A stretch of 24,872 nucleotides of DNA, taken from a virus. The notes under the pieces are model-generated. The model was not told the origin of the DNA and did not search any database. It was given only the letters and a program-made list of their open reading frames with translations. Below are positions 3,424-9,693 of the stretch, one piece after another (within the stretch, counting starts at the first letter, position 1; each line of letters begins with the position of its first letter). A program made the position numbers and the translations under genes. The DNA is taken from positions 1 through 24,872 of the IMG/VR virus record IMGVR_UViG_3300017776_002688; one strand, given 5' to 3'.

Positions 3424-4074
3424 TTATATTTTTGAAGATTGATCTAGAGCGATCCAGTATTGCATACTTCCGCCATGCAAGTGCATGAACTTTTTCTTAC
3501 TAAGAACTACATCGTAGTCAGTAGAAATTACCTTGAAGTTTTCCATTGGAATACGACAATCGAATTCACCTTGATACTCACCAATTTCCATGGTGTATGT
3601 ATTCGATCTCGGAGAACCTGGGTCACCAACTGAGAGTACCACTTTACCATTTTTGGCAATGACACTAAGCATTGAAGCCGAAACAATAGAAGCGGCTTGC
3701 TTGATAGTATCAATCGTTTTAGTGGATAACTTGAAAGCAAATTCAGAATCTACTTCGATAATCTTATCTGGTGCCGCAACTAAAATATTCTTGTCGGCAT
3801 AGTAGTATTTGAATTCTGCTAAGTCTTTTTTGATTGACAAACTATCGTCACCAAACTCAACATCGGTATCATCCATCATAGATAGAAGTGCCAACAAAGT
3901 GTTTAGATCATAGATGCCAATTTCCCTGTCAAAAGTTTCTGATACTTCTGCTCGGGCAAAGATTCCAACATCTGCTGGAATTGTATTTAAAACATTACCA
4001 GGTCTAATCAAAAGATTAGGATTGATACTAGCAAAGTTTTTGAGAACCTCTAGGGTTTTCTTGGATATTTTCAT
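3424..4074 (-). CDS. 45: DNA polymerase sliding clamp gp45
   Basis: 216 residues (T4 gp45 is 228). The N-terminus MKISKKTLEVLKNFASIN and the pattern of alternating beta strands, with EIGIYDLNTLLALLS and FADxDVEFGDD-like segments, match T4-type clamps, which form trimeric rings around DNA. The clamp tethers the polymerase and, in T4, also activates late transcription by linking gp33/gp55-RNA polymerase to DNA. It heads a small early operon: a sigma70-type promoter lies at 4107-4135, and peroxiredoxin, the 58-aa gene, gp44 and the radical SAM/dioxygenase genes follow with tiny gaps or overlaps. Confidence 0.93.
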   Translation of the reverse strand: MKISKKTLEVLKNFASINPNLLIRPGNVLNTIPADVGIFARAEVSETFDREIGIYDLNTLLALLSMMDDTDVEFGDDSLSIKKDLAEFKYYYADKNILVAAPDKIIEVDSEFAFKLSTKTIDTIKQAASIVSASMLSVIAKNGKVVLSVGDPGSPRSNTYTMEIGEYQGEFDCRIPMENFKVISTDYDVVLSKKKFMHLHGGSMQYWIALDQSSKI

Positions 4075-4106
4075 TATGTAACCTCATCACGTTGTAAATT
4101 AAAATC

Positions 4107-4135
4107 ATTATATAGGGTCGACTACCAAAAGTCAA
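4107..4135 (-). promoter_or_regulatory. Early sigma70-type promoter of the gp45 operon
   Basis: Read on the minus strand, TTGACT (4135-4130) is followed by a 17-bp spacer and a perfect TATAAT (4112-4107). It lies 33 bp upstream of the gp45 ATG. The segment ACTTGACTTTTGGTAGT is nearly the same as at the promoter at 15673-15701, so these two belong to one promoter subfamily of this phage. Confidence 0.88.
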
Positions 4136-4142
4136 GTAGTTT

Positions 4143-4505
4143 TTAAACAGTTTCTTTAGAAATTGCAAAAGTCTGGTTGTTGTCTGTGTTCCATTGAACA
4201 AACTTTGCTTCGGTTTCAGGTTCAATACCATCGCACTGTGCATCTCTAACTACTGCCCAGGCTGCCTGCAAAGTATTATATGAGTCTTCATCTTCATATG
4301 TTAGAATGTATGAAAAGTCCAACATATCTTCACTGAACTCCCAACTTACTGTAATATCACCATCAGCCTGTCTAGCGGCAATCCAATCACTAAGGACTGT
4401 TTGTCTAGCAGTTTCTTCTGCGGTATATACTATATTTGTATCCATGACATACCAATCGTCATCAACGGTAGGTCTTGAATATGTAATTGCGTATTTGTAT
4501 GCCAT
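4143..4505 (-). CDS. Hypothetical protein, 120 aa, late-promoted
   Basis: I do not recognise this protein. It is acidic and Trp/Tyr-rich (AYKYAITYSRP, VSWEFSEDML, LQAAWAVV), with no signal peptide or membrane helix and no evident catalytic motif; alternating strand/helix segments suggest a small alpha/beta fold. It stands alone between a TATAAATA late promoter (4538-4545) and the early promoter of gp45, with its stop only 8 bp from the -35 box. The late promoter implies a role in assembly or late host takeover. It is a real gene by spacing and promoter, but function is unknown. Confidence 0.7.
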   Translation of the reverse strand: MAYKYAITYSRPTVDDDWYVMDTNIVYTAEETARQTVLSDWIAARQADGDITVSWEFSEDMLDFSYILTYEDEDSYNTLQAAWAVVRDAQCDGIEPETEAKFVQWNTDNNQTFAISKETV

Positions 4506-4537
4506 TTTTTACTCCAAAAATTTGACTAGTATACTGC

Positions 4538-4545
4538 TATTTATA
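4538..4545 (-). promoter_or_regulatory. T4-type late promoter TATAAATA
   Basis: There is an exact TATAAATA on the minus strand. With the T4 geometry (box at -13 to -6) transcription would start near 4532, giving a 27-nt leader before the ATG at 4505. gp55, the sigma that reads such boxes, is encoded in this window. Confidence 0.8.
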
Positions 4546-4549
4546 AAAT

Positions 4550-4608
4550 CTAAGACTGTCACTTCCATTTATGAGAGGAGAGAGAGGTCACGAAAGTGAC
4601 AGTCTTAG
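4550..4608 (-). repeat. 15-bp perfect inverted repeat with pyrimidine-rich loop
   Basis: The arms 4550-4564 (plus strand CTAAGACTGTCACTT) and 4594-4608 are perfect reverse complements with a 29-nt loop. It lies 17 bp after the ketosynthase stop and 4 bp before a late promoter. In the minus-strand transcript the loop contains ACCTCTCTCTCC, and GTCAC in the first arm could instead pair with GTGAC just inside the loop (GTCAC-TTTC-GTGAC), so two exclusive folds are possible. There is no real U-tract after the stem, so it is not a textbook terminator; an RNase-processed 3' end, transcription barrier or small RNA are options. Confidence 0.8.
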
Positions 4609-4625
4609 CCCACTAGGGGAACTGG

Positions 4626-5741
4626 TTAAGTTACTTCGATTAAAACCGAGGCGGCTTTCCCTCCAAAGCCAAGGCTATTCTTTAGCGCATATTTACAATC
4701 AGTTGCGCGGGTTTTCGTAGTAACGTATCTATATTTGGTGCTATTTATAAAAGTTTTCGGTATAATATTACGTTTTAATGCCATTACCGAGTATATTAAT
4801 TCGATTATTCCATTGCCTGCCATGGTGTGTCCTAGCTTAGATTTGAGTCCTACGACATCTACATAAGGAAACATATCTTGAATTGCATTGTACTCAGATT
4901 CATCACCCTGTAAGGTACCTGTAGCATGAGCAGATACAAATCCGATATCATTCTTATCAATGCCTTGTGTGGCTAGCCCCATTGCTTTTTTCAATCCGAA
5001 TGCAGATGGATTAACAAAGTCTCCTTCTACACCATCACTTGCTATACCTGGCTGATAGATGTACCCAATGATTGGAATATTTTTCTCAATTGCTTTGTGG
5101 ACATCCATCAAAATTAAACAGCCTGCTCCTTCACCAGTAATTATTCCATCACGATCATCATCAAATGGAGCAGACTTAGAACCTAGGACACCTAGCTTAT
5201 CAAAAAACGTAGAGTCCCATAAATTATTTGCTGAGTCACCAGCACCGCATACTATGTAGTCATATCGTTTTGCCAAATGAAACGCATAGTCTAATTGGTA
5301 GAGACTTGTAGCGCAAGCAGAATTAAAACTGGTAGCACCACCTGTAAATCCAAACGATTGCGCTATGAGACCCGCGGTGAAGTCTCTACAACCCTGTAGC
5401 AACTGTCGTGGCTTAACTCTATTCTTACCATCACCCAAGTCAGTACCGTAGTCCTGAAACGTGGTATTGCCAGCAGTGAGTGTAGAGAATAAAGTAAATA
5501 CATTATCCGAATATGGTATTGTTTTCAATGCATCGGCTACAGTATGTAATGATATCTTATTCACATCTAATAGGCGATTGTAAATAGGAGCCTTTACTTC
5601 AATTAAATTATCTTTTTGTGCAGAAAAACTACCATCAACAGGAATGGGAATGGGACCAGTTTGATATTCAGTAAAACAATCCATTGGGTTATTCCCAAGG
5701 TTGTCCACTAATCCTATTCCTGTGATAGCTAACCGATTCAC
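4626..5741 (-). CDS. Beta-ketoacyl-ACP synthase (FabF/KAS-type)
   Basis: 371 residues of a complete condensing enzyme of the thiolase fold (host FabF is about 412). All active-site elements are present: nucleophile C143 in FNSACATSL, His272 in SAHATGTLQGD, His305 in SKLGHTMAG with a Lys at about 300, and the gatekeeper LGFGGKAA near residue 358. The enzyme joins malonyl-ACP to an acyl-ACP and so elongates fatty acids; a polyketide-like role cannot be excluded. No acyl carrier protein, reductase or dehydratase is visible nearby, so it would have to use host ACP. It begins with GTG at 5741, overlaps the DUF3310 gene (GTGA) and has AGGA about 10 nt upstream. It is the last gene of the ATPase operon and ends 17 bp before the inverted repeat at 4550-4608. 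Function as a KAS is secure; the acyl chain preference is not. Confidence 0.92.
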   Translation of the reverse strand: MNRLAITGIGLVDNLGNNPMDCFTEYQTGPIPIPVDGSFSAQKDNLIEVKAPIYNRLLDVNKISLHTVADALKTIPYSDNVFTLFSTLTAGNTTFQDYGTDLGDGKNRVKPRQLLQGCRDFTAGLIAQSFGFTGGATSFNSACATSLYQLDYAFHLAKRYDYIVCGAGDSANNLWDSTFFDKLGVLGSKSAPFDDDRDGIITGEGAGCLILMDVHKAIEKNIPIIGYIYQPGIASDGVEGDFVNPSAFGLKKAMGLATQGIDKNDIGFVSAHATGTLQGDESEYNAIQDMFPYVDVVGLKSKLGHTMAGNGIIELIYSVMALKRNIIPKTFINSTKYRYVTTKTRATDCKYALKNSLGFGGKAASVLIEVT

Positions 5742-6022
5742 TTTGAATTTTTCCTATCATGTTCATACAATGCCAAGAAACCATAGTGGATAATCTTAAC
5801 GATATCTTTTCGGTGATCTTCAGGAGTTCCTTTCTTGCCATATCGACCATTATACTTATCGACATTACCAAGGAAGAATCCCATACCATGACCACGATCT
5901 ACAATCACTTCGGAAGATTGGAGTCCACCCTGACCATAGTGACCCTGATAGGTCTTATCTATGTAGGCTTTGAACTCCTCTAATAGTTCATCTTCCCTAA
6001 ACTTGTAGTCTGGTTTAGGCAT
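5738..6022 (-). CDS. DUF3310-like small phage protein
   Basis: 94 residues. The pattern HYGQ, then a Glu-rich segment, GHGMGFFLGNVDKYNGRYGKK, and a final KDIVKIIHYGFLAL matches the DUF3310 family common in phages (GxGF, GNxxKYxxR core followed by a helix). The biochemical role of this family is not firmly known; it is often found among phage nucleotide and DNA metabolism genes. The start is at ATG 6022, sharing its A with the stop of the ATPase gene (TAATG), and its stop overlaps the GTG of the ketosynthase, so the three are co-translated. Confidence 0.75.
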   Translation of the reverse strand: MPKPDYKFREDELLEEFKAYIDKTYQGHYGQGGLQSSEVIVDRGHGMGFFLGNVDKYNGRYGKKGTPEDHRKDIVKIIHYGFLALYEHDRKNSK

Positions 6023-7233
6023 TAAAAGTCCTCCGATGAATCAGTAGTCTCAACTTCTTCAGTGGTTTCCATACTCACACCGGCATCTACTTTGGTGTAG
6101 AGGTCAATGAAAGCAGACTTGGTGTCCACATCAAATCTGTTGACGCATAACTGAATGGCTTTGAGTCTATCATCGAACATTGCAAAGGCTTTCACAATGT
6201 GTTCTAGCCTTCTAGTTGAGATCAATTCATCAATCGCACCGTCATAGAAAGTCTTTCTGATAACGTCAGCCCAAGTAACTAACTTGTCGGCAAATTCATC
6301 ATCAACACAACCTTGAACAGCCATTTTGTTGAGAACAATCTTTTTCTCTTGAGCCGCTGAAGGGTATTCTTGCTCGACAGTAATAGCAAAACGCTCAAGG
6401 AATGCTTCATCAAGAACTTGGGCACCCATAAACTTGCCATCATCAGAGCCTCGACCCTTAGTGTTAGCAGTAGCAATAACATTGAAACCAGCTTTAGGTG
6501 CAATCACCTCACCAGTTTTCTTATTGAAGTATGGTTTGCCTTCAAGTATCGCTTGCAGACACATCAACTTATTAGAGCCTCTATCAATTTCATCTAGAAT
6601 GAGGATCGCACCGCGCTTCATAGCAGTCAGTACAGGACCTTCACGATAGACCACATTGCCATCGACCAGTGTATTACCACCAATCAGATCATCTTCATCA
6701 GTTTCGATGGAGATATTGACTCGGATCGCTTCTTTTTTAAGTTTGGCACATACTTGCTCAACCATCATAGTCTTACCGTTACCGGATAGACCGCAGATAA
6801 AAGTTGGGTAGAACACACCAGATTTTACAATGCTGGATAAATCTTTGTAGAATCCAAAAGGAACGTAAGTGGAATCTTTTTCGGGAATAAGATTCTCAAT
6901 CTCAATTGATAATTTAGCTTGGGTCAAAACTTTACTCTCCGGAGCCTTAGTCTCAATTACTGCAACCGGGGGTGCAGACTGTGGGACAATCTGAGCAACC
7001 GGACCGTTATCACCAAAAGTATATTTACCTCGTGATACGGCATAATTCTCCACGATGTAACCGAGAGCAGAACCTTGCTTGGAAATTCCAAGTTGATCTG
7101 CAATCTGGTTCAAATCACTTCGGGTAAAAACACCACTAGGATTGTCAGTTTGTTGAAGCGCGGAGATAATTGATCCGACTTCTTGTTCTTGTTTGTCATT
7201 AGCAAACATTTGGGTAGTTAGTTGATTCATCAT
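6022..7233 (-). CDS. MoxR/CobS-like AAA+ ATPase
   Basis: 403 residues. Walker A is GLSGNGKT (G148-T155), Walker B is LILDEID (about 211-217), and the arginine-finger region is DEAFLERFAI near 287. The sequence RVNISIETDEDDLIGG after the P-loop is typical of MoxR/CobS-type ATPases. The N-terminal 75 residues (FTRSDLNQIADQLGIS) look like a small helix-turn-helix-like domain, followed by a Pro/Val-rich linker. The C-terminus is acidic. Marine phage homologues are usually labelled CobS (cobaltochelatase subunit), but MoxR ATPases paired with VWA proteins also act as chaperones for metal or cofactor insertion, and the VWA gene lies just upstream. The gene has its own early promoter and a GAGAGAGG ribosome-binding site. 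Which cofactor or complex it serves is open. Confidence 0.88.
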   Translation of the reverse strand: MMNQLTTQMFANDKQEQEVGSIISALQQTDNPSGVFTRSDLNQIADQLGISKQGSALGYIVENYAVSRGKYTFGDNGPVAQIVPQSAPPVAVIETKAPESKVLTQAKLSIEIENLIPEKDSTYVPFGFYKDLSSIVKSGVFYPTFICGLSGNGKTMMVEQVCAKLKKEAIRVNISIETDEDDLIGGNTLVDGNVVYREGPVLTAMKRGAILILDEIDRGSNKLMCLQAILEGKPYFNKKTGEVIAPKAGFNVIATANTKGRGSDDGKFMGAQVLDEAFLERFAITVEQEYPSAAQEKKIVLNKMAVQGCVDDEFADKLVTWADVIRKTFYDGAIDELISTRRLEHIVKAFAMFDDRLKAIQLCVNRFDVDTKSAFIDLYTKVDAGVSMETTEEVETTDSSEDF

Positions 7234-7274
7234 AATAGACCTCTCTCAAAAGGGTTAACTCAATTTATACATAC

Positions 7275-7303
7275 ATTATAGCTGGAGCCAAGGCATATGT
7301 CAA
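7275..7303 (-). promoter_or_regulatory. Consensus sigma70 early promoter of the CobS-like operon
   Basis: On the minus strand TTGACA (7303-7298), a 17-bp spacer and TATAAT (7280-7275) form a perfect consensus promoter. The block AAGAAAAAGGTTGAC upstream is shared with the promoter at 9694-9722. TATAAATT follows 5 bp after the -10 box and may be a weak late box. Confidence 0.92.
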
Positions 7304-7335
7304 CCTTTTTCTTCAATTATTTTTGGCTCCAAGCT
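7280..7335. repeat. Inverted repeat spanning the CobS-like promoter
   Basis: AGCTGGAGCCAA (7280-7291) and TTGGCTCCAAGCT (7323-7335) are inverted copies differing by a one-base bulge, 31 bp apart. The left copy lies in the promoter spacer and the right copy lies just upstream of -35 on the minus strand. It could be an operator, or a weak hairpin at the end of the VWA transcript, whose stop is 8 bp away. Confidence 0.7.
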
Positions 7336-7342
7336 ATTGATT

Positions 7343-9667
7343 TCACGCAACTTTCTCAATGAAGCGATTTAAAAACACTCGGCTTGATGATTTATTCATG
7401 GCAAACTTCTTAAAACCACGTCTTAGATCACCCTTACTGGTAGATTTGACCTCAAGTTCAGTCTCTTCAACATCCAGACCTTTACCACCTTTAATAAGAT
7501 AGAGCGCATCATACGCAGTGGCATTTGGTACTTCAATAAATCTATCTGGAGCCCAGGTCTTTTTGGCTTTGTCAAATGCATTCCAATCATAATCTTCAAT
7601 CGCATTCATGAATTGATCACGGGCTTTCTTTACAGATGGCTCGACCAATCTGAAGCCAATCATTCTAGAGCCGGTAGTGGCTTGATAGTGTTTCATCATT
7701 GCATTCGAAAAGTTATTGTATCGAGGAGCAGAGTCACCGTAACCACGATTACTCTTAATTGCAGTAGTAATAGGACCTTCTTTGATGAAGACATCGGAAA
7801 ACTTTTTGCCGTAGTATCTTTCTGGACTAGCATAACTGTTACCATCATCAAACTCTTTTATTTCACCAATCGTTTCCAATGTAGTGGAGTTATCACCGTC
7901 AGTAAGAATAATAGTATTCAATACTTCAAGAGATTTTGATTCTTTGAACTCAATTGCAATGTCACGGAGAATCATAATACCCTCAGCAAGAGGAGTCATA
8001 CCCAAGTTTAAGTGTCTAGGAGCACAACTTCTGTCCATCTCGACCACATTATCAAAGTCATTATTTCTGTAGTAATTGCCAAACACCGTAGCGTAACCCA
8101 GAAGTTTTTTGAAAACTTTTGTATACTGTGCGGCACCGAGATCGGAAGTAATTAATTCTACCAAACCGACTTGAACATCATCCCAGTGAATGTCACCAAC
8201 TTTAGGATCTCTGATCAAATCTGACCATCTAGTATTGTAACTATTTGCACAACTACTGAACCCATAAACTTTGAATGGAATATTTACTTTTTTACAGAAA
8301 GCAATTTGTATCATCAATTGTTCTAGGGTTGATTTCATTTGTTGGTACATTGACCCAGACATATCTAACAACATTAGCATACCGTGATTTTGTCCATCAG
8401 GCACAGTGGTCGATGATAAGAATAAATCGTCAGTCAGTTTGTATGCCCACAATTTATCTTCATTCAACTTACCAGTACTATTGATACGCTGTTTTTTAAT
8501 CGCGGTAGCTTTTCTTTTCATTTCGAATTGCTGAACCAACTGATTAATAGTTGTCTTATGTTTTGTTTGGAATCTTTTCAGAAGAATATTTTCTGCTTCT
8601 GCCGGGGTATACTTTGGACCACCATACTCATTGTAAGTGGTCTCAAAGTCCCACACTTCAGCACAAGGCATAACTAATTTTTTAGTGATCAGTTTAGGCC
8701 ATGTCACGTTAAGAGTTTCAAGACCATCAGTTTTAATTAGTTCTTGTTCTCTCGCACGGAAATTCGTATCGGTCATTGCTTCAGGCTCTAATGAACCATC
8801 GCTAGAACCTTTCATGATATTGCCGTCGGAAGTTTTTTCAGTAGAAGTTTCATCAGTTTCTTCAGATTCTTCAGACTCTTCACCAGTGGTAGCATTAGAA
8901 GTATCAGTCTCTTCAGAAGATTCACCATCTTCATCGGCATCACCAGATTCATCAGAAGACTCACCGTCTTCACCGGCATCAGATTCTTCAGCAGTTTCTG
9001 GATCATCCCAAGGCTCGCTAACATCATCAGAATATCCGTCATCAGAATATTCAGCATCATCAGTATCATCACCAAAAAGATCATCTTCTGGTTGCATTTG
9101 ATTCTGCATTGCTTCTTCAGATTTAGAATGTTCAAAGAGCGAGTTGGCTAGTTCAACAACTTCATCCCAAGTATTACATTTAGCAACTGCATCTACAAAA
9201 GGCATTTCTTCAGCACTAAAAGGAACAGCCAACATTGAGCCGCCCTTGAAGTGAAGGTTGATTCTATCGATAAGAGGAAGGTCAGAGATTTCTGTATTCT
9301 TCAATCCGAAGAAATCTTTCTTCAGAAGAATATCATAACCCTTAGCAAAAGACTTTACTATACCAGGGTAACGTAACTTGATTAGTTTCTCAATACGTGC
9401 ATCTTCAATGACATTGAGGAATGATTTGAAACCACCGCCTCGATTACAAGTGGCAGTATGCCAACCTTCGGGCGGAGTTTCTAGACCGTGACTGACTTCA
9501 TGACCAATGAATAGATCATAAAGTTCTGGAGCCATCTCGACCCATCTGGGTAAGATAACTTTACGTGCTTTCAAATCGAAAGCCGCAGTAGAAACATTTT
9601 GATGCTCTACTGACAGATTCTCAGTGGCTAGTAATTTAGCCAAATTTGATTTCTGATTAATTTCCAT
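7343..9667 (-). CDS. CobT-like protein with zincin-type HEVSH motif and VWA domain
   Basis: 774 residues. The N-terminal domain has HEVSH at 56-60 followed by NVIEDARIE at about 85-93, an HExxH...E arrangement like zinc metallopeptidases and also seen in CobT-like proteins. Residues about 188-300 are a very acidic Asp/Glu/Ser low-complexity linker. The C-terminal part is a von Willebrand factor A domain with the MIDAS motif DMSGSM near residue 435, a TDGD segment near 585 for further metal ligands, and a basic tail. VWA proteins of this kind partner with MoxR/CobS ATPases, and that partner is the next gene. I chose ATG 9667 because GAGAGG lies 6 nt upstream; a TTG two codons earlier is also open. 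The gene has its own early promoter. Whether the HEVSH site is catalytic is unproven. Confidence 0.85.
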   Translation of the reverse strand: MEINQKSNLAKLLATENLSVEHQNVSTAAFDLKARKVILPRWVEMAPELYDLFIGHEVSHGLETPPEGWHTATCNRGGGFKSFLNVIEDARIEKLIKLRYPGIVKSFAKGYDILLKKDFFGLKNTEISDLPLIDRINLHFKGGSMLAVPFSAEEMPFVDAVAKCNTWDEVVELANSLFEHSKSEEAMQNQMQPEDDLFGDDTDDAEYSDDGYSDDVSEPWDDPETAEESDAGEDGESSDESGDADEDGESSEETDTSNATTGEESEESEETDETSTEKTSDGNIMKGSSDGSLEPEAMTDTNFRAREQELIKTDGLETLNVTWPKLITKKLVMPCAEVWDFETTYNEYGGPKYTPAEAENILLKRFQTKHKTTINQLVQQFEMKRKATAIKKQRINSTGKLNEDKLWAYKLTDDLFLSSTTVPDGQNHGMLMLLDMSGSMYQQMKSTLEQLMIQIAFCKKVNIPFKVYGFSSCANSYNTRWSDLIRDPKVGDIHWDDVQVGLVELITSDLGAAQYTKVFKKLLGYATVFGNYYRNNDFDNVVEMDRSCAPRHLNLGMTPLAEGIMILRDIAIEFKESKSLEVLNTIILTDGDNSTTLETIGEIKEFDDGNSYASPERYYGKKFSDVFIKEGPITTAIKSNRGYGDSAPRYNNFSNAMMKHYQATTGSRMIGFRLVEPSVKKARDQFMNAIEDYDWNAFDKAKKTWAPDRFIEVPNATAYDALYLIKGGKGLDVEETELEVKSTSKGDLRRGFKKFAMNKSSSRVFLNRFIEKVA

Positions 9668-9693
9668 AAACAACCTCTCTCATTTATATATAC

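Follow-up and report, generated by a model that had tools for sequence, protein, structure and literature searches.

A marine T4-like phage carries a conserved, strand-specific RNA hairpin at the 3' end of a three-gene operon, and the invariant loop of this hairpin is complementary to the ribosome-binding site of the operon's first gene, which encodes a CobS-like AAA protein. This match suggests a built-in small-RNA brake. On the sequence comparisons below we consider it reasonably probable that an RNA from the 3' untranslated region pairs with and represses the first gene of its own operon, in the manner of OppZ and CarZ but encoded by a phage.

The hairpin was found in a 24,872-base IMG/VR virus record, the whole of which was analysed (the window) and which contains T4-type genes, e.g. 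that for the gp45 clamp. By its CobS-like protein the virus stands nearest, among named phages, to cyanophages and Pelagibacter phage HTVC008M (about 51-59%). The DNA from 3900 to 5800 had no match among named phages, the hairpin element itself gave nothing there beyond short 80-99% matches, and the 120-aa protein encoded downstream matched nothing in PHROGs or Pfam. The features of the locus are collected in Table 1. A second inverted repeat (TGGAGCCAA/TTGGCTCCA, 31 nt apart) occupies 7283-7331 on the minus strand and surrounds the -35 element of the AAA promoter; the version in L007 has another arm sequence (TGGAATCGAAA...) with the pairing kept.

Table 1. Coordinates of the hairpin, its neighbouring genes and the predicted target sites in the window
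Feature	Position	Strand	Remarks
120-aa gene	4143-4505	minus	between hairpin RNA and gp45
Gap with hairpin	4506-4625		120 nt; between two minus-strand genes, ketosynthase-like, then 120-aa gene
Late-promoter-like TATAAATA	4538-4545	minus	for the downstream 120-aa gene
Short U-run, terminator-like	4545-4548	minus	3' of hairpin; UUUU in the window and, in clade B, UUUUU to UUUUUUU
Main hairpin	4550-4608	minus	19 bp with wobbles (4608-4590 with 4568-4550); loop 4589-4569
Invariant stretch GTGACCTCTCTCTC	4591-4578	minus	contains loop core GACCUCUCUC
Exposed loop core GACCUCUCUC	4580-4589	minus	exact complement of AAA ribosome-binding site
Small hairpin, CCC/GGG with tetraloop	4609-4619	minus	directly 5' of main hairpin; clade B form ATCC-GNAA-GGAT
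Beta-ketoacyl-synthase-like gene	4626-5741	minus	directly upstream of hairpin RNA
DUF3310 gene	5738-6022	minus	in AAA-ketosynthase operon
CobS-like AAA gene	6022-7233	minus	operon's first gene; main predicted target
GAGAGAGGTC at AAA ribosome-binding site	7238-7247	minus	4 nt before AAA ATG
AAA promoter, sigma-70-like	7275-7303	minus	TTGACA-17-TATAAT; upstream of AAA
VWA/peptidase-like gene	7343-9673	minus	weaker predicted target; precedes AAA
GAGAGAGGTT at VWA start	9672-9681	minus	9/10 to loop complement

A conserved and covarying RNA hairpin

The arms at 4550-4564 and 4594-4608 are 15 nt each, 100% complementary and separated by 29 nt, so that the exact 15-bp arms in a 120-bp non-coding gap reported by the initial annotation are confirmed. 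When the window was dinucleotide-shuffled 200 times, the longest perfect stem (loop up to 60) was 14 bp, and none reached 15 bp. The minus transcript folds with an energy of -33.5 kcal/mol (z -3.56), and the element folded alone gave z -5.06. Two mutually exclusive folds had also been proposed. The GUCAC/GUGAC pairing that this requires is possible in the window, but the alternative is far weaker (-6.4 kcal/mol for the 5' half alone, against -26.9 for the full hairpin) and is not conserved: the 5' halves of L065 and L064 reach just -2.0 and -3.2 kcal/mol, in other shapes, and we therefore do not regard the two exclusive folds as a conserved feature. In the window, a small minus-strand ORF runs uninterrupted across the 3' arm, but in L007 it meets a TGA, for which reason a coding reading was dropped.

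The hairpin is present in sixteen further IMG/VR contigs, which fall into two clades. In clade A, the 120-aa gene was found in eight further contigs, every one of which keeps the hairpin; in L006 (120-aa protein at 88% identity) and L007/L008 (73%) the only difference from the window in the 59 nt of the element is one base pair, changed at both positions (A-U to C-G), with no change in the 29-nt loop. Of the 80 loci that a gp45 clamp search returned, eight (L060-L067, clamp 67-70%) carry the 14-mer GTGACCTCTCTCTC at the corresponding site; in this clade B the arms around the 14-mer have a different sequence with the pairing kept, followed by a run of at least five T. In L065-L067, tblastn found no ketosynthase or 120-aa homologue; the element still stands before the clamp gene. 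The small hairpin 5' of the main one was present in six of the six sequences folded, in clade A as CCC(C)/GGG(G). A late-type promoter lies directly 3' of the hairpin in most copies; the sequence TATAAATA of the window's clade is one that we take to be late-promoter-like from the T4 late consensus, and TTATAAATA is present near the clade B hairpins except in L065-L067. Another copy of TATAAATA lies at 4742-4749 (minus strand) within the ketosynthase gene, and its aligned bases differ in L006 and L007. A stable hairpin followed by a U-run, i.e. the arrangement of an intrinsic terminator, is found in clade B; in the clade of the window the U-run is weak, the window itself having only AUUUUAU, and its hairpin was absent from the list produced by a terminator scan with 3-8-nt loops.

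A covariance model recovered the 10 known copies among 90 sources at 80-84 bits, with a 20.8-bit partial match in L184 as runner-up, and matched 11 of 11 known records and none of 36 others. Scanning with the 14-mer loop gave 92 stretches, from which 73 new loci were screened, 40 of them listed; among the matches listed, L173 and L184 look similar, but were rejected as the word there runs antisense within an ORF or spans the end of one. Rfam gave no match in the window at or above gathering score, and the 14 matches obtained between 4480 and 4680 at E up to 5 were all below gathering score and chance-like. The RNA family is thus absent from the Rfam copy searched, and is defined by its covariation and invariant seed.

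Covariation of the arms in relatives, which the initial annotation had named as a check, proved strong. In alignment A6, which covers the main hairpin only (7 rows, 6 distinct; L061 left out), 13 of 17 pairs changed on both sides and 93.1% of the cells were paired, with a misplaced gap in L064 and L065 costing two pairs. None of 500 shuffles reached the alignment's percentage of paired cells, its number of double-changed pairs or its covariation score, and 114 of the 500 reached its number of further pair types; slid controls reached at most 50.0% of cells paired and 3 double-changed pairs, and RNAalifold agrees with the result. Between the clades, the arms are identical at 10-16 of 34 positions, the seed at 13 of 13 and the remaining loop at 4-5 of 10, the exposed core GUGACCUCUCUC being invariant across both. 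Because 13 G-U cells on the sense strand stand against 2 C-A cells, the element most likely functions as the minus-strand transcript. The opposite strand could fold as GUCAC-GAAA-GUGAC; the G-U cells and the model scores (at most 18.9 bits antisense) favour the sense strand.

Complementarity of the loop to gene leaders

The loop core GACCUCUCUC and GAGAGAGGUC, the sequence at the AAA ribosome-binding site, are exactly complementary, in agreement with the initial reading of the CobS-like leader. If the antisense of the loop itself is set aside, 9 of 10 records contain a single exact copy of the corresponding DNA word GAGAGAGGTC, the remaining record being a fragment of 4,174 bases. Wherever the sequence was inspected, this copy is the AAA ribosome-binding site; the match is kept in all nine searched relatives whose record includes that leader. 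When the leaders of mechanically called genes were ranked by duplex energy with the loop, AAA came first in the sets from the window (32), G001 (132), G006 (23), G009 (23) and G010 (27), i.e. in five of six, and second, after gp44, in G002 (201). The longest perfect loop matches among first-start leaders were 12 nt at gp44 in G002 and 10 nt at AAA in G001, followed by 8 nt; the AAA leader of G002 was excluded from this count because its mechanical start lies upstream. In the comparison with random pyrimidine loops that had been called for at the outset, AAA stands out: its real complementarity was reached by 0-1 of 1000 mononucleotide-shuffled loops and, mostly exceeding this control as well, by 1-12 of 1000 dinucleotide-shuffled loops. 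Neither this comparison nor the covariation check refuted the initial reading, which is supported in part.

The VWA leader fared less well in the same comparison. Its 9-of-10 match, also reported initially, was found again, and it is the second-ranked leader in the window, G006 and G009, but shuffled loops equalled it more often (10-34 of 1000 mononucleotide, 11-112 of 1000 dinucleotide), with about 11% of dinucleotide-shuffled loops doing as well in two of the three leaders tested. VWA is therefore a weaker candidate target. At gp44, a further candidate target, a 12-nt perfect loop match occurs in four clade A contigs, the leader of G002 recurring in L008, L004 and L005, and was reached by 0 of 1000 mononucleotide-shuffled and 11 of 1000 dinucleotide-shuffled loops. 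The match is missing from the window and from L006, in both of which gp44 is preceded by another short frame. This frame, at 2597-2790 on the minus strand of the window between the redoxin gene and gp44, is present in L006 and absent from L007, L004 and L005, in which gp44 has a leader with the 12-nt perfect match to the hairpin loop.

Carriers of the RNA are not alone in having the AAA leader motif. L038, L079 and L080, all of them more distant contigs, have GAGAGAGAGGTT before AAA and the hairpin RNA was not found in their records, and the distant L247 has TTTTTGAGAGAGGTC before AAA and no such RNA within its 5,030 bases; the L079 leader pairs equally well with the loop (-21.5 kcal/mol). A leader-motif scan in which 72 new loci were screened gave, among the matches listed, L247 as the only further contig with the motif before AAA beyond known or window-type ones. 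In favour of the pairing, the six relatives in which GTGAGGA or a similar sequence precedes AAA (L073, L083, L088, L099, L108 and L114) lack the hairpin RNA as well. The leader motif may nevertheless have another reason, and the loop may predate or postdate it. Loop and target are both invariant, with no covariation between them, and co-evolution of loop and leader is not supported.

Proposed feedback on the operon and alternative explanations

In the mechanism that we propose, the 3' end of the AAA-DUF3310-ketosynthase transcript would consist of the small hairpin and the long terminator-like hairpin, the latter presenting the pyrimidine seed GUGACCUCUCUC in a loop of ~21-24 nt. As the AAA promoter lies upstream and no promoter-like site was listed on the minus strand from 4804 to 4545, the RNA would be the terminated, perhaps processed 3' end of this mRNA, probably freed as a small RNA via termination and processing. 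We infer that this RNA occurs as a separate molecule, acts in trans and represses: the loop would pair with the ribosome-binding site of AAA, at GAGAGAGGUC, and less strongly with the preceding VWA gene, and the pairing would block ribosome entry, giving negative feedback on the operon and possibly silencing AAA and VWA before late transcription from the promoter just downstream. More tentatively, the copies may form a family of phage small RNAs derived from an early-operon terminator-like hairpin, whose loop shuts off AAA, and in some members VWA and gp44 (clamp-loader), as an early/late timer.

It is unlikely that the element is just an intrinsic terminator or a 3'-end-protecting hairpin between the early operon and the late promoter, with a loop conserved for some other reason. 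Its position at the operon end, the U-run of clade B and the late-type promoter that directly follows most copies are what such an element would have, but an invariant 14-nt loop is unnecessary for termination, the arms diverged freely and the loop did not, and the loop is exactly complementary to the AAA leader. A loop of 21-24 nt would, moreover, be unusual in a terminator.

The closest mechanistic rival to a small RNA acting in trans is pairing in cis, in which a long mRNA would fold back so that its 3' loop pairs with its own 5' ribosome-binding site. Loop and target do share one predicted transcript, and the lack of a listed promoter-like site from 4804 to 4545 makes a long mRNA the probable source of the RNA. 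We nevertheless think pairing in cis quite unlikely, since the VWA and gp44 leaders need not belong to that transcript and since, for OppZ, a processing-site mutant excluded intramolecular pairing as the mechanism (PMC7398697). Very doubtful is the proposal that the loop is a binding site for a protein (a phage translational repressor, Rho or an RNA chaperone) and its complementarity to purine-rich leaders a by-product; the pyrimidine-rich C/U loop and the motif-bearing leaders without the RNA would suit this, but the match runs through the GUC end (10-11 nt), and a generic C/U tract puts AAA first in the leader sets less often. A DNA-level element, i.e. an operator or cruciform upstream of the late promoter, is scarcely credible: the inverted repeat adjoins TATAAATA and the two sites have a 10-bp DNA word in common, but the G-U pairs are confined to one strand and the arm sequence is not conserved between clades.

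If the small-RNA feedback is true, a lytic T4-like marine phage brakes its own early mRNA through the end of that mRNA, which would be a timing layer in addition to promoters and protein repressors. The RNA family yields specific predictions for loop and leader swaps, for which a plasmid reporter could suffice without a cultured host.

Relation to known small RNAs

RNAIII of Staphylococcus aureus pairs with Shine-Dalgarno sequences through C/U-rich hairpin loops close to its 3' end, as is predicted for the phage RNA; unlike the latter, it is a long, multidomain RNA of a bacterium. Our literature search for the hairpin element or for phage 3'-UTR feedback RNAs gave, among the matches listed, nothing on the element.

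OppZ and CarZ of Vibrio cholerae are autoregulatory small RNAs derived from 3' untranslated regions (PMC7398697). Release from the mRNA by RNase E and Hfq-dependent repression of the own operon are further marks of this type. The phage RNA is likewise predicted at an operon 3' end, with an intrinsic terminator whose U-run is clear in clade B and weak (UUUU) in the window, and its seed is complementary to the ribosome-binding site, i.e. the translation-initiation site, of its own operon, hence the possible feedback. It differs from OppZ in being phage-encoded, in having its seed in a terminator-like hairpin loop, where that of OppZ is predicted at the 5' end of the RNA, and in matching the first gene of the operon, whereas oppA, the first gene in its operon, is unaffected by OppZ (PMC7398697). 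Base-pairing small RNAs encoded by phages include PreS of lambda and VpdS of VP882, both of which are described as needing Hfq, with PreS acting on the host gene dnaN (PMC12197685). The RNA predicted here would resemble PreS and VpdS in being a small RNA encoded by a phage and would differ from PreS in that its predicted target is the phage's own operon.
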